Source: Branchiostoma floridae
Taxonomy: Eukaryota > Chordata > Leptocardii > Amphioxiformes > Branchiostomatidae
DNA: 64,000 bases
Assembly: GCF_000003815.2 (NCBI RefSeq)
Contig: NC_049987.1
Coordinates: 20,966,187-21,030,186, forward strand
Reading direction: 5' to 3'
In this document: one piece after another, positions 9,101 through 44,261 of the stretch
Numbering within the stretch: position 1 is the stretch's first letter
Layout: each line of letters begins with the position of its first letter
Program-made: the position numbers and the translations under genes
The notes under the pieces: model-generated
What the model was told of the DNA's origin: nothing
What the model saw: the letters and a program-made list of their open reading frames with translations, nothing else
Databases searched by the model: none

Positions 9101-9526
9101 AGATAGAAGTGAGGAAGTTTTTTTACACCTGTGTGGAACAGGTAAAGCTCTAAAGATACAGGACTTCCTGGTACACTGTGTGGAGCTCGTCTGTGTGCAT
9201 CAGGACAAGATACAGGTGAGAATGTGGGGCAGGTAAAGCCCTAAAGATACAGATGAGGGAGTTTTTTTACACCTGTGTGATGCAGGTAAAGATTAGTCCT
9301 TCGTTCCCATGTTCGCTTCTGCTATCCGTCTCGGATTTGATGTGGCCTACGCACACTGCTTCACAAGCCAATAGTTTGTCTGCGCTTCTCACATGTACTT
9401 GTCTCCCCTTGTCTGTAGGACCACTTCTCCAAACTCCAGGCCCAGGCCATGGCTACACTCCAGGAGACGCAGCAGATAGAAGTGCCCACCTCCCAACTCC
9501 TGTCCAACACTGACCAACAAGACTAG
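178..9526 (+). CDS. NDC80: NDC80/HEC1 kinetochore protein, 5'-partial, 12 exons in window
   Basis: Microtubule-binding subunit of the outer-kinetochore NDC80 complex. Exons read: 178-350, 855-957, 1331-1399, 2326-2422, 2658-2749, 3177-3321, 4110-4315, 4921-5085, 7283-7372, 7867-7959, 8494-8736, 9419-9526 (stop TAG). Joined they give 527 codons plus stop, in frame at every junction. The first three exons are the calponin-homology domain, with the family blocks [27 protein letters not shown] and [14 protein letters not shown]. The rest is long coiled coil; the RKLKLIP-like landmark of vertebrate NDC80 appears as [20 protein letters not shown] in exon 8. About 110-120 N-terminal residues, including the basic tail, should lie upstream of the window. 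The last exon ends 15 codons into a minisatellite. At least six exons have decayed partial copies of one edge in the adjoining intron. Product identity is very secure; the 3' end rests on my reading of exon 12. Confidence 0.93.
440..545. repeat. Pyrimidine-rich CCTT/CTTT microsatellite
   Basis: Interrupted runs of CCTT, CCCT and TTTC in the intron after NDC80 exon 1 of this window. Simple slippage-type repeat; no function inferred. Confidence 0.8.
903..1080 (+). repeat. Partial duplication of NDC80 exon 855-957 3' edge
   Basis: The 3' half of exon 855-957 together with its donor (about 903-965) recurs at about 1021-1085. The copy still encodes a readable version (HWLLQLF versus HWLLQLV) and keeps a GTAATA donor, but has no acceptor that restores the exon. 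It is a decayed tandem copy lying in the intron. Confidence 0.75.
1107..1185. repeat. CA / CATA microsatellite
   Basis: A run of CA dinucleotides followed by CATA tetranucleotides in an NDC80 intron. Confidence 0.85.
1661..2270. mobile_element. MITE-like element with TAGCCTGGGCA terminal inverted repeats
   Basis: The left end TAGCCTGGGCA (1663-1673) is matched by its reverse complement TGCCCAGGCTA at 2258-2268, enclosing about 600 bp with repeated TTACATGCAAA-type motifs. It has no coding capacity. It lies wholly in the NDC80 intron 1400-2325. The size and inverted ends suggest a non-autonomous DNA transposon; I could not define a target-site duplication. Confidence 0.55.
2525..2705 (+). repeat. 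Partial duplication of NDC80 exon 2658-2749 5' edge
   Basis: The sequence around the acceptor and first ~45 bases of exon 2658-2749 (starting GATATAACTGTGTCC) also occurs about 110 bp upstream, at about 2530-2600. That copy has one extra base pair region and a decayed acceptor (CCATAGGAGCC against CCGCAGGAGCC). The upstream copy would shift frame, so the downstream acceptor is used in the model. Confidence 0.75.
2790..2920. mobile_element. Copy of a dispersed palindromic MITE (CTCAAGTAGCTGGATATG family)
   Basis: Shares CTGGATATGATTTT, GAAATGGTCAGAC and CAGTGACACTGA with copies at 16367-16490 and 17311-17509. Only part of the element is recognisable here, in an NDC80 intron. Confidence 0.55.
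3265..3540 (+). repeat. Partial duplication of NDC80 exon 3177-3321 3' edge
   Basis: The block from GAAGAGTGGGCTGGTGCAG through the CGTACGTCTTAGG donor region at about 3265-3345 recurs almost unchanged at about 3460-3540. The second copy keeps the donor but lacks an obvious acceptor. Confidence 0.85.
4615..4955 (+). repeat. Three copies (two decayed) of the NDC80 exon 4921-5085 5' edge, period about 150 bp
   Basis: The block CAGATGCARTCRGTWGTG plus about 120 bp of upstream intron is present three times, starting near 4618, 4762 and 4919. Each copy includes the GTGCTGTCTACTG and AGTGAACAAGACTT landmarks. Only the third continues into the full exon. Confidence 0.85.
5100..7200. repeat. Degenerate minisatellite (CAGCTTCTGTATCTGTAT unit), split by an inserted element
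   Basis: Units of roughly 55-70 bp containing AGTATAACC, TTTGGTGTGATAACACC and CAGCTTCTGTATCTGTAT occur at 5100-5150 and again at 6965-7200. The 5150-6962 inverted-repeat element interrupts the array, so the array is older than that insertion. Confidence 0.6.
5150..6962. mobile_element. 1.8-kb non-autonomous DNA transposon with TACTCTCATGTCCCTAATAA ends
   Basis: The left end TACTCTCATGTCCCTAATAA at 5150-5169 is matched in inverted orientation at 6943-6962. Subterminal copies of GGTACGTTTATT (or GGTATGTTTATT) cluster at both ends, four or so on the right. The interior has no long open frame. A flanking TA on each side is compatible with a TA target-site duplication. Located in the NDC80 intron 5086-7282. 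Confidence 0.75.
7410..7705. mobile_element. Possible MITE beginning GGTTCTCCCCAG
   Basis: The start GGGTTCTCCCCAG resembles the ends of the element at 17110-17280. The right end near 7700 is degenerate, so the boundary is a guess. Confidence 0.3.
8660..9220 (+). repeat. Tandem partial copies of the NDC80 exon 8494-8736 3' edge, period about 164 bp
   Basis: The last ~70 bases of exon 8494-8736 plus the following ~95 bp of intron recur at about 8831-8995 and 8996-9150, with a shorter fourth copy at about 9157-9220. The second and third copies keep the reading frame [20 protein letters not shown], and each has an in-place AG before GACGGAG and a GTGAG donor, so they could be mistaken for exons. 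Including either would add a repeated segment to the coiled coil. Confidence 0.85.
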
Positions 9527-16100: not shown

Positions 16101-19100
16101 TCTCTGGCTCTTGCCACTCTTTCTTTTCTCTCTTTCCTCTCCTGCTCGTCTTTCTCCTTCTGTTCCTCCAGGTCCTTCTCTATCCTGGAGCTGAGGTGGC
16201 TGAAGTCCTTCCCGATCTGGTCCAGCAGCCAGCGGAAACCCGTGCTGATGTTGGGGTCCACTTTCTTACCGAAACCTGCAGCTGTGGAGCTTAGTTCCTG
16301 AAATCAGGAGAGGAAACATTAACTTAAGTTTCTTCCACTTCCTCCATGGATATAGTTCTGTTAATGAAGGTTAGACGTCCAGGTAATAAGATATGCCAAA
16401 TAGCAACTGGATAGGATTTTGGAAATGGTTAGACATTTCAGATAATATCGATTGTTTTTCGTCAGTGACACTGTGACTAGTTACCTTGTTGTAGCTTGAT
16501 GCTCAAGATTTTGTCTATTCAAGCAGGCATCACACAACCTGTTTTTACAGTATTTGGGTATTTTTTTCTGAATATTTTTCTTAATAAGTTGATCCTAAGT
16601 GAATCCCTTTGAAAAATAACCATTCACATCCAGTAACACACCAATGGGAACTGTAATGCACTGTATATGGAAAATAAGGATATTCATGAAGACAACTGGA
16701 TACTTACAATTTTACATGGACATCTGTACTTGTTGACCATCTGTTCCAGGTACAGAACACTGCACACATCGTTCTCATCAGCTGCACCTTCTACATCCTG
16801 TTTGTTAGCAAGGCTGTGGGAAAGAAAAAAACAAACCAAATTACATAATATATCCAGTTTGTTGTGCATATGAATCAAGAGTGTGAGTTGTCTGCAGTAT
16901 GTGTTCTAGAAGAATATAGATGTAACATGCCTAAAGTGCGCAAGTGTACAGCAGAAGATGTACATGCACATTGCGTACAACAATCAAATCAATAAACATG
17001 AAGATATACATGTACAAACACTTGACTTTCATTTAAATACCAAGAAGATTGCCAAAATAAAAGGGCTATATCAAACAAACCATTGCTTAACTGATGCTTA
17101 TAATATCCAGGCTTCTCCCCAGACCATTGAACAACGGCGGAGCGCCACTATTCTCCTAGCTCAGCGCCACTATACTGATTTTCAAACTTAAAATGTTTTT
17201 TTCTATTTTCCTCTGATCATTTTCCGACGCTCCGAGGGAGATTTCACATTCCCTCCACTAAAAATTTCTGGGGAGAACCCCGATATCTAATTTAAACCTA
17301 AAATTTTCACAGGTTAAGATTTTTTTTTAATGCCGAATACTCAAGCAATCAGATATGACTTTGGAAATGGGCAGACATGTCAGGTACCATCCACTACCTT
17401 TCCTCAGTGATACTGATTAAAATCTGTTGAACAGCATGTTGCATATCCAGATGCTTGAGTAACTGCTATTTGGCATATCTTATTACTTGTGCCTGGATAT
17501 CTAACCTTCATGCATGCTAAGAGGTACATACTACATATGAGGGTCTGCATGCTCTTTTCTGTAAGGCTGGGCAGGCCTATTTAATTACCCATAATTCGTA
17601 GGGAAGCTATTTTATTTTACGTAATTCTTAGTGGGATGAAGCGTAAAGCGTTGGTAGCCTTCGTCAATTTAACATCAGTCATGCCGAATTTGGCATACAT
17701 CGTTGTCAGGACCCCCCCCCCCCCCCATGCAGACTATCATATATATGTACACATGAGAATAGAGACAACTTACACCAGCACAGGCTTCCCTGATATCCGT
17801 GGGTCCCCCAGGAAATCCTCCAGCACTGTCCTGGCCTCCTCAAACCGCGCTCTGTCGCTGGCGTCCACCACAAAAACTGACCCGTGCGCCTCGGCGTAGT
17901 AGCGTGGCCAGATCCCACGGATACCCTTCCCACCCCCCAAGTCCATTGTGGTGATGTCATAACGTCCGAGTTTAAACTCCTGCGGGGAAAATCCTAGCGT
18001 CGCCGCCACTCCCTCTGGGTTTTCTGTAAAGCAAGAAGAAAATCAATTTGATGAGTGGACAGCAGAAATTTACTCTGCTATTACTGTACTTTAATGATTA
18101 CTGTTTGTGTAATAGATTGCAGTGTTGATTAGTTTTTGCCTGCTTTGAACCCCAAGCATTGTCCTTAAAATAAACAGGTTGACAACTGAAGTTTGTGACT
18201 GCAACAAAAGGGTACCCAGAACGAAAGACTTTACAGTAACATACTCACCTCCACTGACTACTTTGATAGTGGATGTCTTGCCAGCATTGTCCAGTCCTAC
18301 TGTCAGGAGTGTTACTGATCTGATGACAGGTGTCAAAGACAATGGTCATTTCCTTTTAAGGTATCTCGGTTGGCTAAATTGGCATTTTGACCTTCCACTG
18401 TTTTCTTATTAATAAATTAAGAAAGAATGGAGCCGTAACGAATGTTGATAAATGGGCATTAGAGAATTCTAAATCTGATTTTTTTGGGGCCGAATTGATG
18501 ACGTCATCATTTTTATTACCTCTGATATTATTTTTTTCTATGACAAAATACAGCACTTTGGTACATACCACTGTACTGAAACTTCGTTTTTCGTTGCATA
18601 ATGATAGAAGCTACAAACGTAGTGTTGCGCAAACTGATATCTACTANNNNNNNNNNNNNNNNNNNNNNNNNNNNNNNNNNNNNNNNNNNNNNNNNNNNNN
18701 NNNNNNNNNNNNNNNNNNNNNNNNNNNNNNNNNNNNNNNNNNNNNNGATCTTTAGTAATTAGAAAATGTTCGTTCTCATTTGATTACAAAATAATAATTC
18801 TTAATAACTACAGATCGTTAGTAGATATCAGTTTGCGCAACACTACGTTTGTAGCTTGCATCATTATGCAACGAAAAACGAAGTTTCATTACAGTGGTAT
18901 GTACCAAAGTGCTGTATTTTGTCATAGAAAAAATAATATCAGAGGTAATAAAAATGATGACGTCATCAATTTGGCCCCCAAAAAATCAGATTTAGAATTC
19001 TTTAATGCCTATCTATCAACATTCGTTATGGCTTCATTCTTTCTTAATTCATTAATAAGAAAACAGTGGACGGTCAAAATGCCAATTTAGCCAACCGAGA

Positions 19101-21790: not shown

Positions 21791-21873
21791 AGTACGGTGG
21801 CCGAGTGGTTAAGGCGTTGGACTTAAGTTCCAATGGACGTATGTCCGCCTGGGTTCGAACCCCAGCCGTACTA
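21791..21873 (+). tRNA. tRNA-Leu(UAA)
   Basis: 83-nt class II tRNA. Acceptor AGTACGG pairs perfectly with CCGTACT; discriminator A. D arm GCCGAGTGGTTAAGGC; anticodon stem TTGGA/TCCAA around loop CTTAAGT gives anticodon TAA. Long variable arm GGAC-GTAT-GTCC; T arm CTGGG-TTCGAAC-CCCAG. No intron. A T-run about 10 bases downstream is a suitable Pol III terminator. All paired regions are intact, so this is likely a functional gene rather than a SINE head. Confidence 0.95.
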
Positions 21874-26331: not shown

Positions 26332-26714
26332 TTAAACTGAAATATTCGTCAGCCGAGGCGATGTTTTCCCTTGTGCTGAGGGCCGCGCTCTGTCGGCAGC
26401 TGCAGCCTGATATTTATCTATCTCTGCCTTCAGCGCTAGATTTGGAACAAGTGTGAAGTCTGTCAGTTTCTGATTGGTTGAGGGAGAGGTCTGATTTCGG
26501 ATCAGCCAACCCTCAATCTCAGTCCTGTCATACGTGTATCCGTCGGATGCTGTGACGGGTTCCACCATGATGGATTTTGTGAAGGGGCAGATGAACCTAT
26601 GCGGGGGCTGGAACTGGAGGGCCTGATACTCGTGTGTCGTCTCGGTGAGAGTGGCGTAGCCCTGGTCGTCCATGTTCGGGGCACCAATGTCGGTAAGGTT
26701 GATTTGACTCGAAC
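26332..26714 (-). other. Last exon of the receptor: ITAM consensus plus U-box
   Basis: This exon carries 127 residues: a short tail with [14 protein letters not shown] (26617-26658), then a U-box of normal length, then a 20-residue tail rich in Ala, Arg and Ser. U-boxes bind E2 enzymes with a RING-like fold held by salt bridges rather than zinc; the hydrophobic positions of that fold are kept. Having the whole module in one exon behind a phase-1 intron makes acquisition by exon shuffling plausible. Confidence 0.85.
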
Positions 26715-29700
26715 CTGGAAACACATCGAGAATATCAACAACAAATTTAGAGTTTTAACATTCATTTATATTGTAATGTGTGAGATAAAGCCACACCCTA
26801 TGCCTTTATATGGTTAATTTTTAGTGCATACGTACCAGTGGTGTACTGTACATTCTGGTCATAGTCATTGCTATCTGGCTCGTCCCTTTGGGTGTTTCTA
26901 AGAGTAGAAAAATGAAAGCATCCTATAAATAGTGTCAAGGAATATGTTTTCTTGATCATATTTGATTTGTTCGCCTAGGATGCACATTATACTGATATAA
27001 ATGAAGGGATTTGAAGACATGCCATGCTACAGACTTCACACACACACATGTTCTTCAGCTGTGTAATTTTCGGGGTGCCATATTGTCAAGATACACAATC
27101 TAAGTTTTATTTTTAATTACCTCTGTGACAGTGCAGATGGATGCTTGCCAGATCGTGCAAAATATACGACGCATGCGACCATAATCACCAGGAACACCAG
27201 ACTGCCAACAACAATTCCCACCAATGGACCAGTTGCTAAACCACCTGAATCTATCAAACAAAGGTAGGAAAGACCTCAGTATTGTACCTCTACATTTTTC
27301 ATGACAGGTGTCGGTAATAGATGTAATGTATGTTGTTACTAGAAAAGTAAAAACCTAACTAAAACTGGCTCCAAGTACATATCTTACCAGGTGGCTTTGT
27401 CATCAAATCAAACGTGGTGGTTGTGACAAGGGAGGACGCGTCCTCCTTAGTCGTCGCTTCGTTCCTGTCCGTAGTGGTAGTGCGCACGTGTGTTAGATTT
27501 CCTTCAAGAAAATGTCAGAGTTAAATGCGTCACTTCCCTACAGGTAATGATTTTCAAAGGTTTAGAGGTTTCAAAGAAATGGATTATTCATGCAATGTAC
27601 ATGTATTGGAATCGCTGATACATGTATAAGTGATCATTGCTTCTGAACATCTGTCTTATCAATAACCAGTAACAGATCATGAATTAAATTACCTTGTATA
27701 CAGCTTGGTGAAAACGAAATATCGTCAACAGCCACTGCACCCTCAAGACTAAGATCAAGGGAAACTGACAGCGAAACCTGGAGGTGAAAATGTGTAAATG
27801 TAAAGACAAACTGTAAAGTATGTTGCCACTATGACGCCACTGTTTCATTCTCATAGGAGGTTTCCGACATGCAGCAAATCCGCCTTGTCAAAACCGTGAA
27901 TACTTGCTTACCGTGAATACTAAGAAAGGTCCTCTCAACATCACATTGGCAAACGTCCAGGCGGGTGTCTCCTCCCTTGGCTTTACCCAAACCTGCTGCA
28001 TCAGTCCTGTGTTTGCTTCCATCATGACGACTGAGATGTTGCTGGCACTTCTTCCCGAGAAATGGTAATAGAAGCGCAGCTGAAATTAGAGGAAAACAGA
28101 ACACACTTGTCAAACATATTTCTGGTCAAGACTATATGACAAAACATGTCTCATGATGGGGACAGGGTGGATATGGAAATTACCAAGGGCACATCATATT
28201 TCGTAATCTATTGACTACCTCCTAGAAAGATGTTCTCGGATGCTGTAATATCAGACATGATGCTGCGAATCCAGTTCAAATGTAACATTACGTACACTGC
28301 AATCAACACTTTGTCCCAGCTGAATAGTGCTCTTCAGTTTGGCTCTCCGTGTGTTCGTGGGTCCAGGCGAGGCGTTAATGACAAAGACGTAGTAACCTGG
28401 AAAGTGGAATGTGCAGATGAACATTAGAAAAGGATCATTAATCTTTCGATCGGCAATTACTTGACATTCTTCTACACAGAGTCTCGTCTGTGATCTATAC
28501 AATATAAATTCTATCATAGGGCGGATTTGGCTTAACTACTTTAAAGATTCCACGATCATGGGCGTGTCATCTAACTGGTACTCAGCCAATAAGAGATTCG
28601 CTTAAACATTTTCTTAAGGTAAGATGATTCTCTGATTGGCTAACACTTGTTACGATGCCAAGCCTACAGTTGAGGAAACCTTAGCCGGTTAAGCAGAGCC
28701 TATATTGTGTTTTTTTGTATGACAGTTGGCGAGGCTCCGTGTATACATATACGTATATAAGACAATGTTATTTGGCCTAGGCTTACAAATTTGGCTGAGT
28801 ACGTTTACAGTCGTTTGTATCTGGTGGAATCTTGTATGGTGATGTGTTGTATTTTCTTTTTCTGTCGTTCTATATTCAAAATTGACAAAGCATTGGCAAT
28901 CAATTACACTTCTGAATTGTATTGATCATTACAATAGCCCAATACAGTGAAAACATGAAAACAACGACTGGACAAGGACACTTAACATTATGACACAGCC
29001 TGCACATGTCTGTTTTTGCGAGATAGTGAAGCTTATCGGTGTCATTACCGATAAAGCTGTCAAAGGTGTGGTCTGTCACAGGCAGCTGTTGTCCCTGTAC
29101 ATCTGCACCTCTTGCTCGAGTAAAGTCTGCGCTATCCTCCCGGTTTTGTTGCCAGGAACACAAATCCGTCTCGAAGTCGCACCTACCCAAAACTGTGAGT
29201 TGAAATGGAGTGACAGACATATCACATAAGTATCTCATCTCCAATAGATCTGATATGCTACGAGGAGGTACCATGCTCTCCGCATCTAAACCCAAGAAAA
29301 TTTTCAACTTCATTGGGATAGGACGTGTTCATACGGTAACAGGCTGTTTCGCAACAATGACAGTTCGCAACAGCCAGTTCGCAACAAGGCAAGTCTTTTC
29401 GCAACAAGGCATAGGTCTTTTCGCAACAAGGCATAGGTCTTTTCGCAACAAAGTACAAGTCGTTTCGCAACATTTGGATGTTAACAATCTTGATAGCCTA
29501 ATAGTGTTAGAAATCGTATTATTAACGTACCACCCGACGTATGAAACTGTACCACCCGGTCATCGGGCTCTCATCGGGTAAATGGTCGAGTACCACAATC
29601 ATGGCATACGCTTAGCAGATCCGCGCATTGAAATAAATATATTTTTAATCCCCTTCCCCTACGGTTTCAGGCGAACTTGCGAACTAATATTCGCAGCGAA

Positions 29701-32700
29701 ATTCCCCGCCAGACGAAGTTGACTCAGGCCGGCGGCGGACTAACACCCGCGCGCCGCCGTAACTCGGGCGCCGCCCGGCGTATGAAAATATCATCGGGCT
29801 CTCATCGGGTAAATGGTCGGGTACCACAATCCATACGCTTAGCAGATCCGCGCATTGAAATAAATATATATATTTTTAATCTCAGGCCCTACGGTCCCTG
29901 TGCACGCCGCGTATACAACTGTACCGCCCGGCGTATGAAAATCATCGGGCTGTCAGGTCCATGCGGTCCAATGGTCCATGCGGCACCATGTTCCCATGCC
30001 GCCGGGGTCGTCTTTCGCACCCAGTAAGATTTTTACGTTAATAATACGATTTCTAACACTATTAGGCTATCAAGATTGATAACATTCAAATGTTGCGAAA
30101 CGACTTGTACTTTGTTGCGAAAAGACCTAAACCTTGTTGCGAAAAGACTTGCCTTGTTGCGAACTGGCTGTTGCGAACGAACTGGCATTGTTGCGAAACA
30201 ACCTGTAACCGTTTATACGCTACACAACTGCAACAAAGGAAATTAAGTAGAAACTATTTTGCTAAGAAAGGAACATTAGTGGAGGAAGTAGGTCTACGGT
30301 ACATTTGGGAAGTTATGCCAAAAATCTGCAAGATATCAAAGAATATAATGTAACGTTACTGTCGTCACAGTTTGTCTCGTCTGATCCATCCGCACAGTTC
30401 CAGGTGAAGTCACACCTGGACTCCCCCGGTACACAGCCGCCGATGCCACAGGTGAAAACTGGGCCTCCGTTAGTCTCACAACTGTCATTGGCTGGGGAAT
30501 TTACAATAGTAACGATAGAGCATGTGATATGTAACTGAGAAAGAGAATGATATTGACAGATAAAAACCATGCAGATAAAGATTTATTTTGCAATAATTAA
30601 TGAGGAACAACTAATACAATAAGTCCTTACAGAGCCATAACAAATCAGGATACAAACGAGGAGTACATAAACTGATAAAATAAAAATGCATATCATATAA
30701 GATGTCATAAAGTAGTAACATTACTAATAGGTATATTTATAGTCATAGTTATCAACTTACCCAGTACACAGTCATCAGACAGGGAGACGTCATCGAGGCC
30801 GATGTCGCCAATATGTGACGAGCCTACCTCTCCCTCTATGTAGATCTGAGGGACCGGAAAGAAGGAATCCATGTCACAGATAACTTCTATTTTGAAATTA
30901 TTACAATCTTGGCAAATAATATAAAGGCACCGTGACTTGCCTGGAAGTTTTTGTCTGACGACAGCGGTACCACGCCCCTGTGCCAGTTGTTTCCCTGTTC
31001 CCCACGGAGCTCCCAAACTTTCCGACTTCCATGTGACGTGGTGAGGAAGACTCGCAGGTATCCGGCATCTCGCCCGTAAATGTGGTAGTAGAAACGTACC
31101 TGTCAAAACAGCAGTCATCACTCGGTGGTAAAATGCTGGTAGCAAGAATAACATCTTCGTGCTTATTGGGTGGGCCGACTACTCTCTCTTGGCAGCCAGG
31201 GGCTGAATTGGGAGGAGCGAGCTGCCATTCGGCGCCACTCAGGTGACCTCAGTAATTGCCCCAGGTGCGGCCAAGGGTTTGAACCACTTACATCGGTAAG
31301 GTCCCATACTCTTTTCGATAAGTGTGGTGGGTTCTTTAACGTGCGTAGGGTGTGGCTCTCCCAAACACGGGACCTCCATTTAACGTCCTATCCTAAGGAC
31401 AGCCCTAGCCGAAGCTAGATACTCCTTTTCACCTGAGCAAAGTTAGGAGAAATTCGTGTAAAGTGCCTTTCCCAAGGGCACAAGATCTGTGACATGGCAG
31501 GATTCTAACTCGAGACCTCTCGATCGCGAGCCAAACACGCTGCCACTGCGCCACGTGACCTCGTGCTGTGTTAACACTGAGTAAATGAGAGTTTTTATTC
31601 ACTACAGCACAGGCATGTCAGAGCCCGTAAATTTATCATTCAACCAACAAAACATGTTGTGACATGAAGCTCACCTTGCAGCTCGAACTTGGACGAAAAG
31701 TGTGCGGGTACGCCAGGAGAGCTTTATCTCTGTGACCGCTGTCAGAAGCCTCCAGATACAGGTAGTAGCTACCTGTAAAAGATCCACACCAATTGCTGTT
31801 ATGACGATTAGGATAATCGTTTTCATGAAATGGGTAATAGTACGAATGTAGTCAAAAACATCACGAAAGTTGTGTTGAATATAAGGATTTTGTTTGATTT
31901 TGTTGTAATGATACATGGCTTAAACAAGCTTCAACCTGCGTTTGGACGATGAGCGAACAGCCAACATTATGTGGTGCGTTTTGATTGAATACAAATAGAA
32001 AAAGAAGTAGAATGATGAAGACTTACTTGTGCTTCCAAGATGGTCCGCTGTAGGGCCAGTGTTGGAGGTTGGAGTTGAACCGGAGTGACGAATCCAGTCT
32101 GCGTCATCCTGGTCTGGCTGGATCCAGTCACACAGGCCGTGCTGAAAGTCACACCGACCTGGGTAGGAGGCTGTGATACGAAAAAGATAGCAACCACTGT
32201 TAGGTATCCGACCTTGAACGACGTTGCTTTGCCTTCAATATGTCACTCCATTTCGGGTTTTCGGGAAAAAAACGGGATACAAAGTATGATTTTAGATAGA
32301 ATCTGTTACAAACAAGGAACAGAAACAAGGCAAGGACATTACAAGCCCATTATTAGATACAGTCAATATCTTTGATATGGCGGTTTGCTTTGGGAATGAT
32401 AGAGATGTTGGGTACAGATATTTTCCATGATGAAGACATCTATTGTTGTTTACGTCTGCTATTCATAGCTCACCACATTGCTGCTCATCAGTCTGGTCCC
32501 CGCAGTCATCAGTGAAGTCACACCACCTGTCCCTGGGAACACACTGGCCATTCAGACACTCATTGTGTACTGTCGGGCAGAATGGTCGAAATCCTGTATA
32601 CATGTATGATATGGCACAATGTAGTTAAATAGTTTCAATTCCTAGTTACATACAACAAATCAGATCATGCAGTACTGGATACCTTACGAAGACGTTACCT

Positions 32701-35700
32701 ATGAGGCGAAAGCTTTTGCAGGTCACAGATGGGACAGAACTACTGTGCATCACAGACGAATATAATGTCAAATAGAACAGAAATATTCCCAAAGATGTAA
32801 TTTCTATTAATCAATCAATCAATCAATCAATCAATCAGATGGTTTATTGGTAAAACAAGGGTCTAGCAGCCAGAGGCTGAATTGTGTCTTGTTGTACATA
32901 ACGTTGTTTTTTTCATCGATTTGAGAATTACTCTCACCTGAACATTCCACAGACACATCCATGCTGTGTGTGCAGGTCCCAGTCTGCCCCCACACCGATC
33001 TGTCACAGTCTGCAAGTTCTTCCTCCTCCCCGGTACACACAACGTCGCTCAGCCATATCGGTGTAGCGGGCTGTCCGGGGAATCTGGTCCCGGACGACAC
33101 GGCTTGTTTGTAGCCGCCTTGTCGGCAGGTTATTGACGCGCTCTGTTCCGTCCAGCCGCTGTTACAGACCGTGCCCCACGCACCATTGTGGAAAATCTCT
33201 ACCCGACCCTCGTTAGGAGTTGTGCCGTCTTCAAGGCGCACACTGCCTTCCTCTGATATAGAAAATAGAGATATTAGTACCCAGGATATGTATGTTCTGG
33301 CCTTTGTTGAGATTTCAATTGGGCAGAATAGGCGAGTCTGCAGGTAGACGTCGCGATTGGAGTCTATGTCGTGAGGACAACAGGACCCCTGATCGGGATC
33401 TCTACCGGCGCGGCAGCGATGCCAATGGTACTGGCAGAGATCGACTCCAATGTCGGACTCTACAGCGGGCGATCAGGCAGAATTGGCGATAGAACGGCTA
33501 ATTCTGCCAGATCACGATCTCTGCCCTAACAAATACGTCGCTAATATGTATCTACAAGCTTGCGTGCGTTATGAGAAGGCCGAATGTCTCACCTATACGT
33601 TCACAGCCTGGTGAGAAGGAGATGTCGTCGATGGCGATGTCGCCTTGGTAGCTGCCAATCTCTCCCTCTATGACAACCTGCGGGATAAAGTGGACTGCAT
33701 GTTATGGCTCAAATGAGATGCAGCTGACTTTGGTGACGGTTTACATTTGCATTGAATGAATGGATTATTTACATCGAGTGACACACAACAACATACAGTG
33801 GCAGCCTATTTCGGCTGAATTGCAGTGTACTTTACAACTAAAATGAATAGCAATCAAAATGTATAAATGAAAACATTACAAAACTTACAGTAACTACTTT
33901 TAAAATAATCTGCATATACATCCAAAGCTTATTGACGCCTCTAGTACTTTGAGTTGTTGAGCATGTCGACAAGGTAAGGTAGTGTGGTCTTCCTGTACCT
34001 AGCAGTTCTACATTCATCGGTATTGTACATGTGTTATCTGGTGTTTGGACATGAGGTACGTTTCTGTCCTGTAGTCTTACAGGGTTTGGCGGCAGCCATT
34101 TTGAGGAGGACGAATAGCTTAGCAAAAAATTACCAAACTTTGCACAGAGTTCAGGCCCTCTGTTGCACAGAGACGGAAGAGACAATTGGTCTAAAGCCAT
34201 GTCGTAACTAACAAAGGTAGGACCAAGAATTATGCTGCAATCTCTTTTTTGTACGTTCTGTATGACCATAGATTGGGCACTAGTGATACTTGATACTTGC
34301 AAACTAAATTTGTAACACTTAACATAGTCAAGACGTAACACGAAATCAACAAATCTTCCGTAGTAAGTTACATACAGTTACTGTTCATGATATTTCAAAT
34401 TGTATGAATGTTTAAGGAAAACGTCACACAGAATACGCCATTAATGTACCTGGAAGACGGCTGTCCTGAAACTGGTGAGGTTCACTTCAACCTCCACCCA
34501 TCTGTCCCCGACCTGGCCTTGCTGTTCCCATACTACCTGCGGTGTGTCGTTTCCTAATGTCTGGAGGAGAACTCGCAGTGCGCCGATGTGATATCCGAAC
34601 ATGTGGTAGAAGAATGTTACCTGTTGCAAAGAAGGCCGAAAACTTAGAGAGCAATCTACGACTAGTCTGTATAGACATATGTAATATGGCCCTCGTCAGT
34701 CAACGCTGACTATGACTAGTGTACAAAATTCAGTGATATTCAGAACATTAAATTCAGTAATATCTATTCCTAGGGGGGGGGGGAGGTATTGATATCTCAA
34801 TAACTTGTTGTGTGGTGTGTGGTCATTTCTTAACAGTCTCTATGGTTTCTTCTTAACGCATTCATTGTTTACTGACTAAAAACGATGACTTTATTTCAAA
34901 ACCTAATTATACTATATCTCATTTAGTGTTTGAGGTGAAATTACGTTACACAATGAATAATAATGAATCTTCTTACCGTGCAGCTGTCTGTGAGTGAGGG
35001 TAGGATGTACGGGCTAATGATGTGTGCCACATCTCCGCGCTGTTGTGGGTCGGAAGCTTCAGTATAGAGGTAGTGACCGTTATCTGAAACTGACAAGATT
35101 TACATCCCAAGAAAATGAATATCTCTCCCCTTGGAAAATCTAGACCTTACCGGGCAGCCTGTGTAAAGTCTCCAATTCATCATGTGTAAATGTGATATAT
35201 TTCGTAAGGATACGATTTATGTTGACATAACTAGTGTTATGTCAGAATACAGCTTGTCGAAGTCTCCAGTTGCCAGTTGTATATGACCGCTAGTCTCTAC
35301 CAGACCTGGCCGAATAGTAATAGGGGACTTTGACCAAGTTAGGAATGAAAGCCTAGTAGGAGATAAATTGCCTAAGAGTATGAGTGAATTGTCCGGCTGA
35401 TAGCTGAATAGACTTCAACAGACTGACTGAAATCCCATGGCAAAGTATTTGGCCAAATTCTTCTCTTTTGTCATCCAGTTGACACGTCTGCTTAGAGACT
35501 ATGTAACAGCGACGTGATAATTTATTGAGTCTAGACCTACCATAGATGCTTTGCTCTTTTTAAAAACCATTGGTAACGTGATTAGTCTAGATCGGCTTGT
35601 GTAATGTCACAGAACGACACTTACCGTTGCCTTTAGTGTGATCATAAGGTGGACCTGTGAAGCCAGACGGCGTTTCCCCACTGTGAAGCGTCCAGTCAAA

Positions 35701-36493
35701 GTCATCCCCCACCCCCTGTAGCCACTGACACGTCGTGCCTTCCTCAAAATCACACGGAAGAATGGCGAACACACCTAAGGCGGAACGAAAGAAAAACCGC
35801 ATCATTCATATTACTCAGAATGATGTTTATTGAAAACACATACACGAAGCTCAAGGCTAATTGCCAATCGACAATGAGCAATCACTATATACATGTACGT
35901 ATATGGTAACACAGGATGAAGATATGGTAAATCACACTGTACATATCGAAGAGGCCTGCAAAATCCGCAGAAAGTTCCGTGTGTTTACTGACGTAAAGAA
36001 AACTAAACCCTGTCAACGCCCGAAAACCCACTCATCCAAGGAAAATTAAGACAATTCGTCTCACACAGACAGCTTTAAAAAAAGAGAGGTCAAAAAGTTA
36101 GATTGTAGTTCTCAGTAGTCCATATTAGAACAGTCACTTGTTCCCACTTGTCACCATTGTTATCTATCAAGTCTTTTATTTTCCATATACTGTATGTTTC
36201 ATGTTGCAATTAATGAACTCTCAGTCAGTATGGGAAGAGCATTAACGTCCTCTATTCACTAAGCAACGACCTGTTTTCAAGTTAACGATTTAAGAACTAT
36301 TAATGGTATGGACATTAAGATGTCTTTCATGATATCTCTACCAAACATGGCGATTGCTATTGCAGAGAGATATGCCCTCTCGCAGCGTCGTTAAAAAACA
36401 GTAGAAACACTTACTGATATTGGTCGACACAGACTGGCTCAAGCCTTGACCCCGCTCTCCTACGATGATAAGAGCCACCATTAAGCCTAACAT
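26332..36493 (-). CDS. Single-pass receptor: MAM-SRCR-LDLa-MAM-LDLa-MAM-TM-ITAM-U-box, complete, 20 exons, 943 aa
   Basis: Predicted cell-surface receptor with a cytoplasmic E3-ligase domain. Exons: 36415-36493, 35625-35774, 34977-35083, 34450-34620, 33593-33677, 32938-33252, 32474-32593, 32027-32170, 31675-31772, 30941-31099, 30761-30845, 30360-30491, 29049-29192, 28296-28396, 27912-28079, 27693-27777, 27388-27501, 27121-27250, 26836-26897, 26332-26714; total 2832 nt, in frame. Signal peptide 1-20; MAM ~27-197; six-Cys SRCR 198-302; LDLa 303-342; MAM 343-504; LDLa 505-548; MAM 549-714; Thr-rich stalk 715-752; helix ~763-784; YATL-x6-YQAL at 836-849; U-box ~853-925 with [21 protein letters not shown] and PNLALK landmarks. 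Extracellular domain borders are all phase-1 introns. Intron 10 has a GC donor. I know no described animal protein with this layout; ligand and substrate are unknown. Confidence 0.9.
27121..27250 (-). other. Transmembrane exon of the receptor
   Basis: Encodes a 22-residue hydrophobic run ([20 protein letters not shown] core) followed by RSGK, a typical type I stop-transfer. Places the U-box in the cytoplasm given the N-terminal signal peptide. Confidence 0.9.
29334..30211. mobile_element. 0.9-kb inverted-repeat element with TTGCGAAAAGAC subterminal repeats
   Basis: Ends CGGTaACAGG and its inverse border about 190-bp inverted arms. Each arm holds several copies of TTGCGAAAAGACYT. The GC-rich centre contains a direct repeat (CATCGGGCTCTCATCGGG ... 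CGCATTGAAATAAATAT at about 29550-29650 and 29790-29880). No transposase. Sits in receptor intron 12. Confidence 0.8.
31166..31560 (-). mobile_element. tRNA-derived SINE
   Basis: Read on the minus strand, the 5' head GTGGCGCAGTGGCAGCG is a Pol III A box and GAGTTAGAATCC a slightly decayed B box. Between them lies an anticodon-arm-like CTCGCGATCGAG. A conserved body with GTGTGGCTCTCCC and CACTTATCG-like segments follows. Lies in receptor intron 9. Family name not determined. Confidence 0.7.
32807..32838. repeat. AATC tetranucleotide microsatellite
   Basis: Seven to eight tandem AATC units in receptor intron 6. Similar short GATT runs occur near 14905 and 36970. Confidence 0.9.
33315..33530. 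mobile_element. Possible GC-rich inserted element with GGGCAGA ends
   Basis: A GC-rich block within AT-rich receptor intron 5 begins GGGCAGAATAGG and ends GATCTCTGCCC. Inverted ends are short and imperfect, so the call is weak. Confidence 0.35.
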
Positions 36494-37611: not shown

Positions 37612-40600
37612 ATGGAAATGTACAGTACGGACGACATCAGGCTCTCATTTGAGAGCAAGAGGCCGTCGAACCGACGTTACAAGCCGTCAAATCGACGTTA
37701 CAAGACGTCTGCCCGTCGCCCCGTAAGAAAACCCTGGACGAAAAGTCCTGCCTTCATTTCTGCCGTGATTTTCGCGTCTCTTGCTGTGGGAGGGATGGTG
37801 GTCGGGGTGCTGGTGGTGACGGGCGTGATCAACACAGCAGGTACGTAACATGTGCTGAAACTAGTAAACTTTTAAGGGTTTGATAAATCTTTAGATTATA
37901 GCCTTGCCTTGGCGAGACACTCTCCGTATTGTTGTAATAGACTTGAAAGAACAGTGTGCCAAGGTGTGCTATAGATACAGACAAAAATCACTCTGATACC
38001 CAGCTCTTATCACCATACAATGTTAGGAAATTAGTAAAAATCTAAGATAGATTGTAGTACTACATTGTTTGCCTAATTGTTAAGCAACGAGGCATCGTAT
38101 ATTCTTGTATTCTTATATCGACAAAGGCTTCATCCGATTTAGACCTCATCGTAATTCTTTTAGTGACATTACAATGATAAAACTCATGAATTAGGCACGC
38201 TACATAAAACACATATTTTCCACGATGTTATCTAGGGTTCCTGCCTTCTACGAATGATGACTTACACGGCATCGAATCAACACCAAAGCAGCCGACCACG
38301 CCAGGGACAAGTCGCCAGCGGCCGACCACGCCAGGGACAAGTCGCCAGCGGCCGACCACGCCAGGGACAAGTCGCCAGCCGACCACCCCAGAGACAAGTC
38401 GCCAGCCGACCACGCCAGAGACAAGTCGCCAGCCGACCACGCCAGAGACAAGTCGCCAGCTGACAACGCCAGAGACAAGTCGCCAGCCGACCACGCCAGA
38501 GACAAGTCGCCAGCCGACAACGCCAGAGACAAGTCGCCAGCCGACCCCGCCAGAGACAAGTCAGCATATAACAACCCCGGGTACAAGTCAGCGTCCCACC
38601 ACTCCAGAGACAAGTCACCAGCCGACCCCGCCAGAGACAAGTCACCAGCCGACCCCGCCAGAGACAAGTCACCAGCCGACCACGCCAGAGAAAAGTCAGC
38701 GTCCGACGACCCCAGTGACAGATCAGCACACCACAACCCCAGGTACAAGTCAGCGTCCCACCACTCCAGAGAGAACTCAGCCTCCGACAACCCCGCTGAG
38801 AACTCAGCCTCCGACAACCTCACTGAGAACTCAGCCTCCGACAACCCCAGAAACAGGACAGCAACCGACCAGCCCAGCAGCAACACTCACAACTCTGCAC
38901 GTCCAAGTGACAACTAGAAGCATTAGTACGGTCGGCTCTGACAGTACGACTATTACAGCACAACCCACAACCTCTCGCCCTAGAACCACAACGCAAGTGG
39001 GAACAACAGCACCACTGTCAACGGAAGGTAACAGCATAATAGGTGAGTGATATACAGAAATCTCAACTATTCCATTCTGCAACGTAATAACACTGAAGAC
39101 ACAAAACGGCTGGAACTCGTCTGAAGCGCGTCTGATGCACGTCTATCAAGCAGATGTAGAAGCGCACAATGTCCTTTGTGACACTGCTAAAATAATTTAC
39201 TACCATCTTCAGTACAGCGCCATGTTGTTATTGGCTTAAAGCAAATAAAGGATATGAAATATTAGGATCGTTCAGATATATTTTCCTTCAGACTGGAAAA
39301 TGCTGCCTACAATCGATTGTTTCATAAATGCCATATGCGTTGGCATTGGTGTTCTGAAAGATTTATCCTAGGTGACATGCTAAAAAGAGCTATTATTGAT
39401 TGCAGTCATTTCGGTATGTGTATGATAACCAAAGTACATCTAATGAGAATTACTATTGCTCCATTAGTATATTTCCATTTTGTCTCTAACAGTACGCAAT
39501 TGTTGATTTACCCAATTAACGGGCTACAGTGTCGGCCGTTCATTTTTGGCGAAGTAATAATGCTCTTATCATACAAGACCCTTTTCTGATAAATTTGGCA
39601 TCATAAAAACATAGATGGAGGTTGGACAACTTGGGCGTCATGGCAAGCTTGTGACGTCACCTGTGGCGGCGGCGTACAGCGCAGGACTCGGGCGTGCACC
39701 AACCCTCCTCCGGCGAACGGGGGGCTTCACTGTGCCGGCCGAGACGTGCAGAGCAAGACCTGTAGCGACTGGGAGTGCCCTGGTTAGTATAGGACCTTGT
39801 TCCATAAGATATTTATCAATTATTTGTTGCTGAAGTCTTGGCTGAAGTACGGTAAAAGATCTCAATGCTTTAAAGTAATGTTGTTATACTGTTTCAGACT
39901 GTCTCCGCGTGTGCACAGTCGGTACATTAAACCCCGCCTGCGATGCCTGCACCTGTGACAACCACGTGCTAGACGGCCACGTAACGGACACCAGAAACGC
40001 TCCACTCGATGCTGCTGATATCTACCTCGCCGAAAAGCCGTGGGAAGTTGCATCTACGACCAACTCAACAGGCCGCTTCAGTCTGGCCGGGGCTTGCTCC
40101 CAGGGCGTCCTCCTACTGGTCAAGAGAAGTGGCTACTTCGAGGAATACGCCAACTCAACTCAACTGGACAGCGAGACGTCTTCAGTTGCGATAAAGATGA
40201 GGGTCATGGGTGAGTTTATTTCCTTCTCTGACGGTAACCCTGTCATTATAGATACCTTCCTCTCTAAGAGGAAACAAGAAGAAAGGGATGGAACAAATAT
40301 CAGTTTGATAAATTTAACAGTAGGTTCTGGGGTTGTGTTTGGTCGAACAAGCGTGTCGAAAAACATTGCCAGACGCACTACCTGCCGCGGTCTCCACTAA
40401 GTCTTTCCCCGCACTATTCATATCTGGAACGCCCTACCAGAAGACACGGGGTCCAGTTCCCGTCTCTAGCCACCTTCGTCTCGAGGATATCCAGTCCAGC
40501 TTAAACCCAACCTAATGCTTAGCGACCTTTGACCGATACAGGTCAGTTATTGTCGGTTCTTCGGAAGATGGACATGAAACATGTAAGCTTTTCTATTCCC

Positions 40601-43600
40601 TCTAATTCAGAGCCTCCGATCATAGACGAAAATCCGGTAGGAAAAGTTCGGCTTGTCGGACAAGACGTGACGTTCTGTTGCAGGGCCCATGGAACACCGA
40701 TGCCTTCTTCCTATGAATGGTGAGTCCTTCCCTCACGACATCACTATGTACAAAAGACCCTTACTTTATTAAGTAGTTATTGTGAGAACACGAACGTTAT
40801 GACATGTATCACTTTAATTTCACTGATATGGTACATCTATCTACAATGAACAACCGAATTAGAATTTCAAGGCAGTTACGTATACAGCGTATTTTACAAC
40901 AATACAGAAGTCAACATCAATAGGTTCCATACCCGAAAGAGTGTCGACTGTGCACATGTACTTTTTGTCTTTGGTGGTTGAGCGATGCACGTAATCTTCA
41001 AAGGCGTCTTTTCAATTTAGTGTTTAACCGGTTAGACACTCTGGCAGTTGGCAAATTGTCCTCGTCAGACTCGTCTGGCATTGAAGGAAAATATTGTATG
41101 AAGGACCCGAAGGTGATTAAGCCTGACCTGTTAAGATCTCAAAGGGACTCCGCCTACTTGTGGCAGCCGTGGGACTATGCAAATTGACAATCCGTCAGAA
41201 AGCAACCCCTATGGGAGTAATCTATGACCCTACAATACAACTGTTGTCTCCAAACCCTTTTCAATTACATGCATATCGTCGTCGGCCACATGATGTTTTC
41301 CTTTAAATGTGTTGCTACATGTGGAATCTACAATTTCTGCACAGGTTCAAAGATGACAGGCTACTGGACGATGACGTGTACCAGTACAACGAGACCCTGA
41401 CTCTGTACGACCTACGGGTCAATGACACAGGAACTTACAAGTGCCGGGCCAACAGTGAGGCGGGCGCAAAGTACTCAACAGGGGCCTTGCTTACCGTATA
41501 TGGTAAGTTACTTCATTCTATCATGCAATTTACTAGATACTCACAGCATTGGTTTAATGGTTGGGTGGTTCATAAAATATATGCTGGATGGTAAAATAGC
41601 TAGGCAGCAAACATTGTAAAGTAAGTGACATCGCCAAACTCTCTTTAAAGTAAGACACACGTGGACAGGAAAGACACAGTGTTGATCGTGCACACCCTCA
41701 TTTTCAACTGTATTGTTTTGGTAATACCCTGCGGACCAGCCGGGATCGGGCGGCTAGGACAGTTCGTTCGCTGGCCCAAGGCAGCCAGGCCCGCCGATCT
41801 GCTATTAGCGCCCCGGGGAGTTTAAGCCCGATAAGGTCCACCTGCAGCGAAAACACCTTCGGGCTTAAACTCCTCCGGAGCGCTAATGTGAGGTCAGGGG
41901 CTGACTGCCTTCGCTCCCCGAACAAAACTGGCTAGTTACCCGGTCCTGTCTGGCTCCCAGTGCATTTTGGTAACTGTTACCTTGCGTATGTTATTGCTTG
42001 GCAGCCTAACCTTCATCAATGCGTTTCGCCAATTAGTTAACGGGACAGCAATGTGCAACTCAACGCCCACCAGCAAGCTCATCGACCTTCCCGACGACTG
42101 TGTCCAGCACGACACCAACACGACCAAGTACGACATCGGGGCGTGCAGCAGGCAGAAGTGTGCGGGGGACCTGGGGGAGGACGACAAAAGTTGCCTGGAC
42201 ACCAGGAAGTTCTGCTGCATGTCTGTAGCAAGAGAAACTCGTACAGTACAGTGTAGTGATTATAGTTTGGATATTACGGTAACGACAAGTTGTGGGTGTG
42301 GGGAATGTGTAGAGCTAACGCAGAAAGTAAGTGGTCGAGCTTTTGGCATGAAGAATGGTACAGAGATACCGCTAGAGTATGGTGACATTATAATGGACGG
42401 TCAAATTCAGGGGCTTACTAGTCAGGCAGGTGAATTCGAGCTAAACGTACCACTTACAGTTGATCACGTCACTATCACATTTAAGGATTTTTATAAGAAG
42501 TTAGTCACGACTACGAAAGTGCTGCCCGTTCAGGAAGGCATTGAGCCGTACTACACAGTTAGGGTACAGGTCCGGCCACCAGCCTCCCCTCTTAACGCCT
42601 CAGAAACAAGCACCATAAGCCTTGGTACCCTAGCGGGCCAGCCAGCTTTAGCAGAAGTAGACATCCCCCCTAACTCTTTCTTCACCGAGAACGGTGATCC
42701 TTACACAGGCACAGTTCAGGCTAGTGTGGGTTTTATAGACCCCAGAAACCCTGACGACTTTGACGACATCCAGAGCGATCTGACCACAATAGATGAAGAG
42801 GGTACCCAACAAGCTTTGCGCACATTCGGCATGTTCTCCATGGACTTTGAAGATGACTCGGGAAACCCTGTAGTTATGGGAGGGAAGATGACAATGCACA
42901 TAGATCCTGAACAGATAAACATTAACCCCTTTGATGTTGACGAAAACGGAAACCTGAACACCAAGCTGTGGTCCATGAACCCCAGTTCTGGGGAGTGGGA
43001 GTTGGTGGGTAATTTGAGGGTGGGCACGGCGAGGAGGAGGAAACGGTCCCGGACGTTTTTTATCGGCGAATTTGAATATCGTGGGTACTCAATCAACTGT
43101 GACAAACGGGAGACAACGGATAGGAGATGTTGGGTGAAAGTCAGGGTTTACGATGATGAAAATGCCGCTAAGAATCCAACTGCTAGTGGGCAGAGGACAG
43201 GGGCACAGGTAACCGTTCTCACCATAGATACACCGGCTTCTACCACCAACTGGTGGGGTCGGAGGAGCGGTTTAAGTCGGTACCAGACTGTTACAGCAGG
43301 CGCTAACGGTGTGTGTATCGAGACCTTTTGTGAGCCTACCGGGACGGAGTTTAATGCATCTGTACATGTCAGTTATGGAAGCAACAACTACAAGGTCTTG
43401 CACATCGATGATCACCCGAATGTGATTAACTGGCCGACCAACCTTAAAAATAGTATTGAGCACACAAACAACCAAAGAACTGTCGTCTTTGACGCGTTCA
43501 AACCTATTACGAGCAATGGTCCCTTATACAAGTACGAAGACCAGTCTCTTTGTAATAATGCACCTATCGGAGATAACCACATTGCCGTCTATGACACAGA

Positions 43601-44261
43601 GTACCAACCTTATAGTTTCCCTCCTTACGAATTTAATGAGGATCAGTACAACGAAGACATCACCGCATTATCTTGGTACAACAGGGAAGATGGTCAGAAA
43701 AAGGTGTGCTTCATCAAAGTGAGGGTTCTCTTCTCGAACCCAAATAGCAAAGTAGAAATCCGTACAAAAAGTGAGGGAGGGGGAAACTACTCTCCAAACA
43801 GTGGGAAGTTGTATGGGATTCGGGAAGACCGAACACAGACAGACAGTGGGGACACCAGGTACGGGTTCACATGTGTTGAGTTTAAATGTCCTGGTCCGAT
43901 TATGACAAGCGGCCGTGGTTGTCCGTGTCCAGTAGAAGAAGCTGGGGTCCCACAGTCGGACAACATAAAGCTGACAGTGGTTGCTAAAAACCAAAACTGT
44001 CGGTACACGGGAATAGACACTGAGCTTTCTCCCTTTGTATCACCTCTAAGTACTTGGTTATGGTCATGGACGGATAGGAACAAAGTGGGATTTACAGTTC
44101 CCCTGGGAAACGACTTTGGCCGAAACTTCGGAATTTATACTTCAAATGGAATATATAAAACTGGATATGATTCCGCGTACAATCATTGTAAGACGGGTCA
44201 TGAATCTGGCACCCAAGGCACCATGGAAGATTGGGCTCTTGAATTTAGATGTTATATGTAA
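37612..44261 (+). CDS. Membrane-anchored CILP-like protein with mucin stalk, complete, 7 exons, 1335 aa
   Basis: Relative of cartilage intermediate layer proteins. Exons: 37612-37840, 38236-39042, 39615-39782, 39898-40209, 40611-40719, 41345-41502, 42037-44261; total 4008 nt, in frame. Residues 1-45 are Arg/Lys-rich (a PSNRRYK unit is repeated), then a hydrophobic helix ~46-72 with no cleavage-site look: a type II signal anchor. Exon 2 is a Pro/Thr/Ser mucin-like stalk. Exon 3 is a TSP1 repeat with CDVTCG. Exon 4 is the Cys-rich plus carboxypeptidase-regulatory-like segment typical of CILP. Exons 5-6 form an Ig domain. Exon 7 is the CILP C-terminal region, with a furin-type RRRKR at ~927-931. 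Vertebrate CILPs are secreted, so the anchor and mucin stalk are unusual. The exon 7 acceptor could instead be at 42049, also in frame. Confidence 0.88.
38285..38865 (+). repeat. In-frame Pro/Thr mucin repeat array, 24-27-bp units
   Basis: About twenty units reading QPTTPETS(R) or variants (HQPTPPETS, QPPTTPLRT), in the CILP-like exon 2. Dense Thr/Ser beside Pro predicts heavy O-glycosylation. Unit length is a multiple of three, so copy-number change keeps frame. Confidence 0.9.
40330..40510 (+). pseudogene. LINE reverse-transcriptase C-terminal fragment
   Basis: One frame reads FPRTIHIWNALPEDTGSSS, the conserved C-terminal FPRTIxxWNxLP motif of CR1/Jockey-type LINE proteins, then a stop. 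5'-truncated remnant in CILP-like intron 4. Confidence 0.7.
41804..41887. repeat. Strong hairpin, 28-bp stem, in CILP-like intron 6
   Basis: ATTAGCGCcCCGGgGGAGTTTAAGCCCG faces its inverse with two mismatches across a loop of about 28 nt. It lies in a GC-rich block (about 41725-41940) unlike the surrounding intron. Probably a small foldback element. Confidence 0.75.

Follow-up and report, generated by a model that had tools for sequence, protein, structure and literature searches.

The 64,000-nucleotide window analyzed here (the whole stretch of Branchiostoma floridae DNA presented above) carries on its minus strand a 20-exon gene that probably encodes a genuine single-gene receptor–ligase rather than an annotation error. 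The predicted protein combines an ectodomain of MAM, SRCR, and LDLa modules, one transmembrane (TM) helix, and a cytoplasmic tail in which a sequence resembling an immunoreceptor tyrosine-based activation motif (ITAM) directly precedes a U-box, a ubiquitin ligase (E3) fold. We consider it probably real because three lancelet species share this arrangement, represented by the database proteins P0001 (B. floridae), P0002 (B. belcheri), and P0003 (B. lanceolatum). Its anatomy and conservation are read directly from the sequence, that is, from the joined frame, the domains, the exon shared by motif and U-box, and the recurrence in three species. On balance, we favor the view that it is a type I receptor whose U-box would ubiquitinate the receptor itself, its cargo, or its partners after clustering by ligand, although each step of the chain leading from ligand to ubiquitination is one that we infer.

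All 20 exons were located on the minus strand between positions 36493 and 26332, and the gene was rebuilt from the raw sequence. The joined exons amount to 2832 nt including the stop codon and hold an open frame of 943 residues, whose sole stop lies at the end; the coordinates, exon count, and in-frame length given in a preliminary description of this DNA proved exactly right when the exons were rejoined. Eighteen of the 19 introns are GT–AG and one, after exon 10, is GC–AG. Up to the membrane exon, module boundaries fall at eight junctions (1|2, 5|6, 6|7, 7|8, 11|12, 12|13, 16|17, and 17|18), every one of them in phase 1, the pattern to be expected of shuffled extracellular exons. The exon 1 ATG is preceded by an in-frame stop 54 nt further upstream. 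P0001 (NCBI name "MAM and LDL-receptor class A domain-containing protein 1-like") matches the reconstructed model exactly apart from a start four residues later. The parts of the gene, with the basis of each placement in brackets, are as follows.

36415–36493, minus strand: exon 1, with the ATG and a putative signal peptide, the weakest part of the model (exon join, hydropathy)
33593–35774, minus strand: exons 2–5, first MAM domain, residues 34–194 (exon join, Pfam)
32938–33252, minus strand: exon 6, SRCR domain, residues 206–302 (exon join, Pfam)
32474–32593, minus strand: exon 7, first LDLa domain (Pfam count of two LDLa; placed by exon reading)
30761–32170, minus strand: exons 8–11, second MAM domain, with the GC donor at exon 10 (Pfam; placed by exon reading)
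30360–30491, minus strand: exon 12, second LDLa domain, residues 517–546 (exon join, Pfam)
27693–29192, minus strand: exons 13–16, third MAM domain (Pfam; placed by exon reading)
27388–27501, minus strand: exon 17, Thr-rich, poorly conserved stalk (exon join, alignments)
27121–27250, minus strand: exon 18, single TM helix and basic stop-transfer sequence (exon join, hydropathy)
27106–27117, minus strand: ATTAAA and AATAAA hexamers in intron 18, just past the donor of the TM exon (sequence scan)
26836–26897, minus strand: exon 19, a 62-nt juxtamembrane exon whose translation is present in frame in each of the three species (alignment)
26332–26714, minus strand: exon 20, cytoplasmic tail, U-box, and C-terminus in one exon, with the stop at its end (exon join, Pfam)
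26617–26667, minus strand: ITAM-like motif DQGYATL-x6-YQAL, residues 833–849, kept in all three species (pattern match, alignment)
26404–26604, minus strand: U-box domain, residues 854–920 (Pfam)
26335–26346, minus strand: C-terminal NISV, identical in all three species (alignment)

Intron 12 also contains, at 29333–30212, a palindromic element of about 880 bp built of TTCGCAACA-like repeats, whose long inverted arms reach 97% complementarity over 115 nt and 92% over 88 nt; it looks like a non-autonomous transposon.

By Pfam, MAM scored 341.2 bits over three stretches (cutoff 26.4), SRCR 94 bits (cutoff 26.1), which places the protein in the SRCR superfamily, and LDLa 44.5 bits over two stretches (cutoff 24.1), in the order MAM-SRCR-LDLa-MAM-LDLa-MAM. 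The three MAM, one SRCR, and two LDLa domains named in the preliminary description thus all lie above the curated cutoffs. Its single helix is likewise borne out: with a Kyte–Doolittle threshold of 1.6 over 19 residues, only one hydrophobic segment passes, in exon 18, in windows that start at residues 754–770, with a peak of 3.03 at residues 763–781. P0001, P0002, and P0003 also have one such segment each.

For the cytoplasmic part, the preliminary description had proposed a domain search with the Pfam U-box model PF04564, a score below threshold being counted against its claim. The full protein scored 63.7 bits and exon 20 alone 68.1 (cutoff 21.4), and the U-boxes of P0002 and P0003 scored 66.7 and 66.3 bits. 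Unlike a RING, the domain has no zinc-binding set of cysteines and histidines; it contains only one of each, and the histidine is a proline in the other two species. Its best single-domain match among solved structures was 7c96 (PUB12, about 43 bits), a plant U-box, followed by 1t1h (37 bits), CHIP (32 down to 27), E4A (28), and E4B (24 to 23); LubX came to 43.6 bits only when its two U-boxes, scoring about 20 and 22, were added together. In CHIP, the positions that contact the ubiquitin-conjugating enzyme (E2) are known to be hydrophobic, hydrophobic, and proline, and a linchpin residue has been defined as well. Compared with plant U-boxes, the three lancelet proteins have Phe or Ile at the first E2-facing position and keep the proline in TSPS/TSPT. 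Pfam scans of the model, P0002, and P0003 found no WD40, SAM, or other partner domain of the animal U-box families, and an NCBIfam scan gave nothing informative. By sequence this is a good U-box, from which ligase activity cannot be assumed.

Directly ahead of the U-box, and in the same exon, all three species carry DQGYATL-x6-YQ[A/S]L, a feature absent from the preliminary description, as was the C-terminal NISV. The strict ITAM consensus is [DE]xxYxx[LI]x(6-8)Yxx[LI], and each of the three proteins, one per Branchiostoma species, matches it once. Among 100,000 shuffles of the 157-residue B. floridae tail, 128 matched the strict pattern and 2,084 a looser one, figures that serve only as a guide because the motif was spotted by eye before the pattern was picked. 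The two YxxL units of the motif would also double as AP-2 sorting signals (YxxPhi). At the C-terminus, NISV is invariant in the three species although most residues just before it vary, and it resembles a class II PDZ ligand.

The search for the same architecture in other lancelets that the preliminary description had called for found it in both B. belcheri and B. lanceolatum. P0002 (982 residues) has the same domain set; past the signal peptide, 691 of 903 aligned residues are identical, and all 30 ectodomain cysteines are kept. P0003 (418 residues, N-terminally incomplete) runs unbroken from the end of the second MAM domain through LDLa, MAM, helix, and tail to the U-box, so that in both orthologs the third MAM domain, helix, tail, and U-box follow one another without interruption. 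P0003 lacks the stretch that corresponds to exon 13 and stays in frame, because phase 1 flanks this exon on both sides in B. floridae. Between B. floridae and B. belcheri, identity is 61/69 in the U-box, 141/157 in the second MAM domain, 34/39 in the second LDLa domain, 17/45 in the stalk, and 16/28 in the TM segment; conservation of the U-box is thus roughly on a par with that of the best ectodomain modules and does not exceed it. Across the three species, invariant positions make up 11/44 of the stalk, 15/26 of the TM segment, 12/29 of the juxtamembrane part, 12/16 of the stretch leading up to the motif, 15/20 of the motif region, 52/69 of the U-box, and 7/20 of the sequence that follows it. 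Past the membrane, conservation peaks in the U-box core (residues 880–909, with 14/15 and 13/15 invariant), and this uneven pattern fits a working tail.

Homolog searches returned the same few proteins. With the tail as query, two of 100 candidates passed, P0001 (the same gene) and P0002; with the U-box, the same two passed among 112 candidates of about 520–1640 residues, and P0003 was the only one to pass among four of 275–875 residues. We had also considered that the tail exon might be common to other amphioxus receptors; no such protein emerged from the tail search. No homolog outside Branchiostoma was returned by this word-based search, which is insensitive, so that absence there is not shown.

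Several observations weigh against a genuine receptor with a working ligase. P0001–P0003 appear to be predicted models, not transcripts, and two of them bear signs of model error: P0002 has a 35-residue insertion, lacks nine residues of exon 3, and begins with an unrelated N-terminus, and P0003 is missing its N-terminal half and one MAM exon. No AATAAA or ATTAAA was found between the stop codon and position 24500, while one of each sits in intron 18; weaker hexamer variants are present within 1 kb of the stop. The signal peptide of the preliminary description stands as an N-terminal candidate in exon 1, but a weak one, with a best 19-residue window of 1.28. In B. belcheri the N-terminus differs (8 of 17 aligned residues match; best window −0.08), and the B. 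lanceolatum record lacks the N-terminal end, signal-peptide region included. In the U-box, the second E2-facing position, Leu in plant U-boxes and equivalent to Phe237 of CHIP, is Lys in all three species, and the linchpin position is Asn in all three; the choice of E2 or the activity may therefore be altered. Finally, an AlphaFold prediction of exon 20 from a three-sequence alignment gave no usable model (mean predicted local distance difference test score, pLDDT, 40.5), probably owing to the lack of related sequences.

Whether the fusion is genuine was the main question, because gene prediction in lancelets has produced false fusions, in some cases an identical one in two species; PMC4967905 documents a Lectin_C/fn2 chimera that was predicted for both species and that expressed sequence tags argue against. 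Were the present gene such a chimera, the receptor would end at or near exon 18/19, and the U-box exon would come from another gene or from read-through, misjoined alike in each species. The poly(A) hexamers of intron 18, together with the lack of a canonical one behind the stop, would suit this explanation. So would the name of P0002, ARL13B, for a protein without an Arf domain. In B. floridae, the next gene identified downstream on the same strand consists of ARL13B-like GTPase exons (17773–18345, minus strand), one of which, the longer, scores 57.9 bits for Arf and the other 17.8, below cutoff; an ARF-like GTPase and ARL13B head their matches among solved structures. That P0002 carries this name suggests the same neighbor in both species, as well as read-through or merging at the locus, and we infer that in B. 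belcheri the receptor and its ARL13B neighbor were merged into one gene record. Between receptor and ARL13B, ARAGORN reports a tRNA-Leu (TAA) at 21791–21873 on the plus strand, which is putative and may be a tRNA-derived short interspersed nuclear element.

Against a chimera, the U-box and the tyrosine-rich cytoplasmic tail are held in one exon and one frame, sequence and frame are retained across the exon 19/20 junction in all three species, and P0003 has the fusion too, despite its different truncation and different name. Furthermore, the exon 20 tail and the U-box are more conserved than the TM segment, and the proteins lack the domains that accompany the U-box in other animal families. We therefore hold a shared misjoining to be highly improbable: the risk of a fusion artifact is largely answered, by a cross-species argument that is strong but indirect. 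As the preliminary description had it, domains of extracellular type and, past the helix, a U-box belong to a single uninterrupted protein, and this holds in three species, whereas its statement that no counterpart is known was too broad. Reading through intron 18 would end the protein at ...LSQR followed by a stop, and a short isoform without tail and U-box is possible by this route.

Taking the receptor–ligase as a single gene, the mechanism that we favor would begin with binding of a ligand, particle, or cargo by the MAM/SRCR/LDLa ectodomain and clustering of receptors. Kinases of the Src or Syk type might then phosphorylate the tail tyrosines, or AP-2 might bind them as YxxPhi signals. The membrane-held U-box would recruit an E2 and attach ubiquitin to its own receptor, to partner proteins, or to clustered neighbors, which may lead to internalization and lysosomal delivery of receptor and cargo and so limit or shape the signal. 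Cbl is recruited in trans to vertebrate ITAM receptors; the lancelet receptor would have built in the E3 that vertebrate receptors recruit in this way. More tentatively, and with the balance tilted against it, the protein might be a one-chain immune receptor that combines an activating ITAM with its own ubiquitin ligase, and hence recognition, kinase signaling, and ubiquitin-driven uptake or shut-off. If so, it would be the first membrane receptor whose cytosolic U-box is shown to act as an E3.

A real receptor need not be a ligase, however. The U-box might lack E3 activity and serve only for docking or as a structural element, with the tail acting mainly in endocytosis or ITAM-type signaling; the Lys and Asn substitutions and the two YxxL motifs would agree with this. 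We think it rather unlikely, since the U-box core is the most conserved stretch behind the membrane and both the hydrophobic first E2 contact and the TSPS/TSPT proline are retained. Another alternative is a constitutive housekeeping clearance receptor whose U-box, much like a built-in degron, would govern only its own turnover, independently of ligand. An ectodomain with MAM and LDLa domains is shared with MAMDC4 (endotubin) and MALRD1, neither of which is known to have a U-box or SRCR domain. MAMDC4 is described as endosomal (PMC11125477) and linked to endocytosis (PMC5112496). The YxxL signals in the tail would also suit clearance, yet strict ITAM spacing would be superfluous for simple turnover and is nonetheless kept in all three species, which makes a mere clearance role quite improbable in our view.

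Compared with known systems, the layout predicted from the sequence, single-span with an extracellular domain and a cytosolic E3, would resemble that of the PA-TM-RING ligases ZNRF3/RNF43 and GRAIL (RNF128). These are membrane-spanning E3s with an extracellular domain, GRAIL being single-span; ZNRF3/RNF43 act on Wnt receptors and are bound and inhibited by R-spondin (PMC3905715). They differ in having a protease-associated ectodomain and a zinc RING, neither of which was found in the Pfam scan of our model, where MAM/SRCR/LDLa domains, a U-box without zinc ligands, and an ITAM-like motif stand instead. P0003 bears in its source the name of WDSUB1, a WD40-SAM-U-box protein, which probably reflects the U-box alone. 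Derivation of the U-box from WDSUB1 is an idea prompted only by this name, and it was discarded. The Pfam scans revealed no WD40 repeats or SAM domain in the lancelet membrane receptor. A 2010 survey lists WDSUB1 among seven main human U-box genes, whose partner domains are TPR, WD40, cyclophilin, Ufd2-core, RING, or SAM; the available part describes no membrane receptor among animal U-box genes, and the main text does not mention Branchiostoma, amphioxus, or transmembrane (PMC3087547).

Another parallel is offered by the amphioxus "direct connection" shortcut receptors, for example TNFR-caspase, in which an ectodomain is fused to an intracellular effector and the fusion is cDNA-validated (PMC2575513). 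There the effector role falls to a caspase instead of an E3, and "ubiquitin" and "U-box" occur nowhere in PMC2575513. Among cnidarian DMBT-like predicted proteins, SRCR and CUB are found with MAM, fibronectin, and UBOX among their partners (PMC5119243). These proteins, compared here by description and not by sequence, contain CUB and multiple SRCR domains; whether MAM and UBOX share one chain, or a U-box follows a TM segment, is not stated in the available part of that source (PMC5119243). Literature searches with "transmembrane U-box", "U-box receptor", and similar phrases, or with "U-box domain" together with "MAM domain", found no paper, and none of the listed matches for Branchiostoma and U-box concerned such a receptor, as judged by titles and abstracts. 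Neither "U-box" nor "ubiquitin" occurs in the lancelet genome paper (PMC4284660) or in a survey of invertebrate SRCR proteins (PMC10855680), and neither "ITAM" nor "ubiquitin" in a paper on amphioxus LRR receptors (PMC10199209). The statement of the preliminary description that it was aware of no animal receptor with this layout thus needs narrowing: RING membrane E3s, amphioxus shortcut receptors, and predicted cnidarian SRCR/CUB proteins with UBOX are precedents. Receptors with their own E3 are already known as a kind, and it is the U-box version with an ITAM that is undescribed, as far as these searches and the matches listed reach. Act1/TRAF3IP2 acts at the IL-17 receptor as a separate adaptor that is recruited to it, whereas the lancelet U-box is part of the receptor chain.

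Elsewhere in the window, two pairs of open reading frames (ORFs) on the minus strand (55334–55978 and 57110–57754), 1776 bp apart, are identical in DNA sequence (0 differences, both pairs) and stem either from recent duplication in tandem or from a stretch duplicated in the assembly. The first ORF of the duplicated pair (55334–55633) encodes a VWA domain, and the surrounding region also has TSP1 and, by eye, C-type-lectin-like ORFs. On the plus strand, a 789-codon open stretch (41892–44258) encodes domains of CILP (cartilage intermediate layer protein), and upstream of it a Thr/Pro-rich ORF contains a 27-bp tandem repeat (38289–38877). NDC80 kinetochore-like exons occupy 3935–9221 (plus strand), with NDC80_loop scoring 42.8 bits at 4900–5163 and its neighbors recognized by eye only; at 8670–9221, an array of 164-bp tandem repeats overlaps a coding-looking ORF.

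With a U-box built into a conserved receptor, it would become possible to test in a single molecule the sequence in which ligand binding, tyrosine phosphorylation, and ubiquitination take place, and such a receptor would provide a natural template for ligand-controlled degradation. The gene further offers a clean test case for whether the odd domain combinations of lancelets are real or errors of gene prediction. Such a receptor would also show that the joining of a receptor to a ubiquitin ligase has occurred at least twice in animals, with a RING in ZNRF3/RNF43 and with a U-box here.

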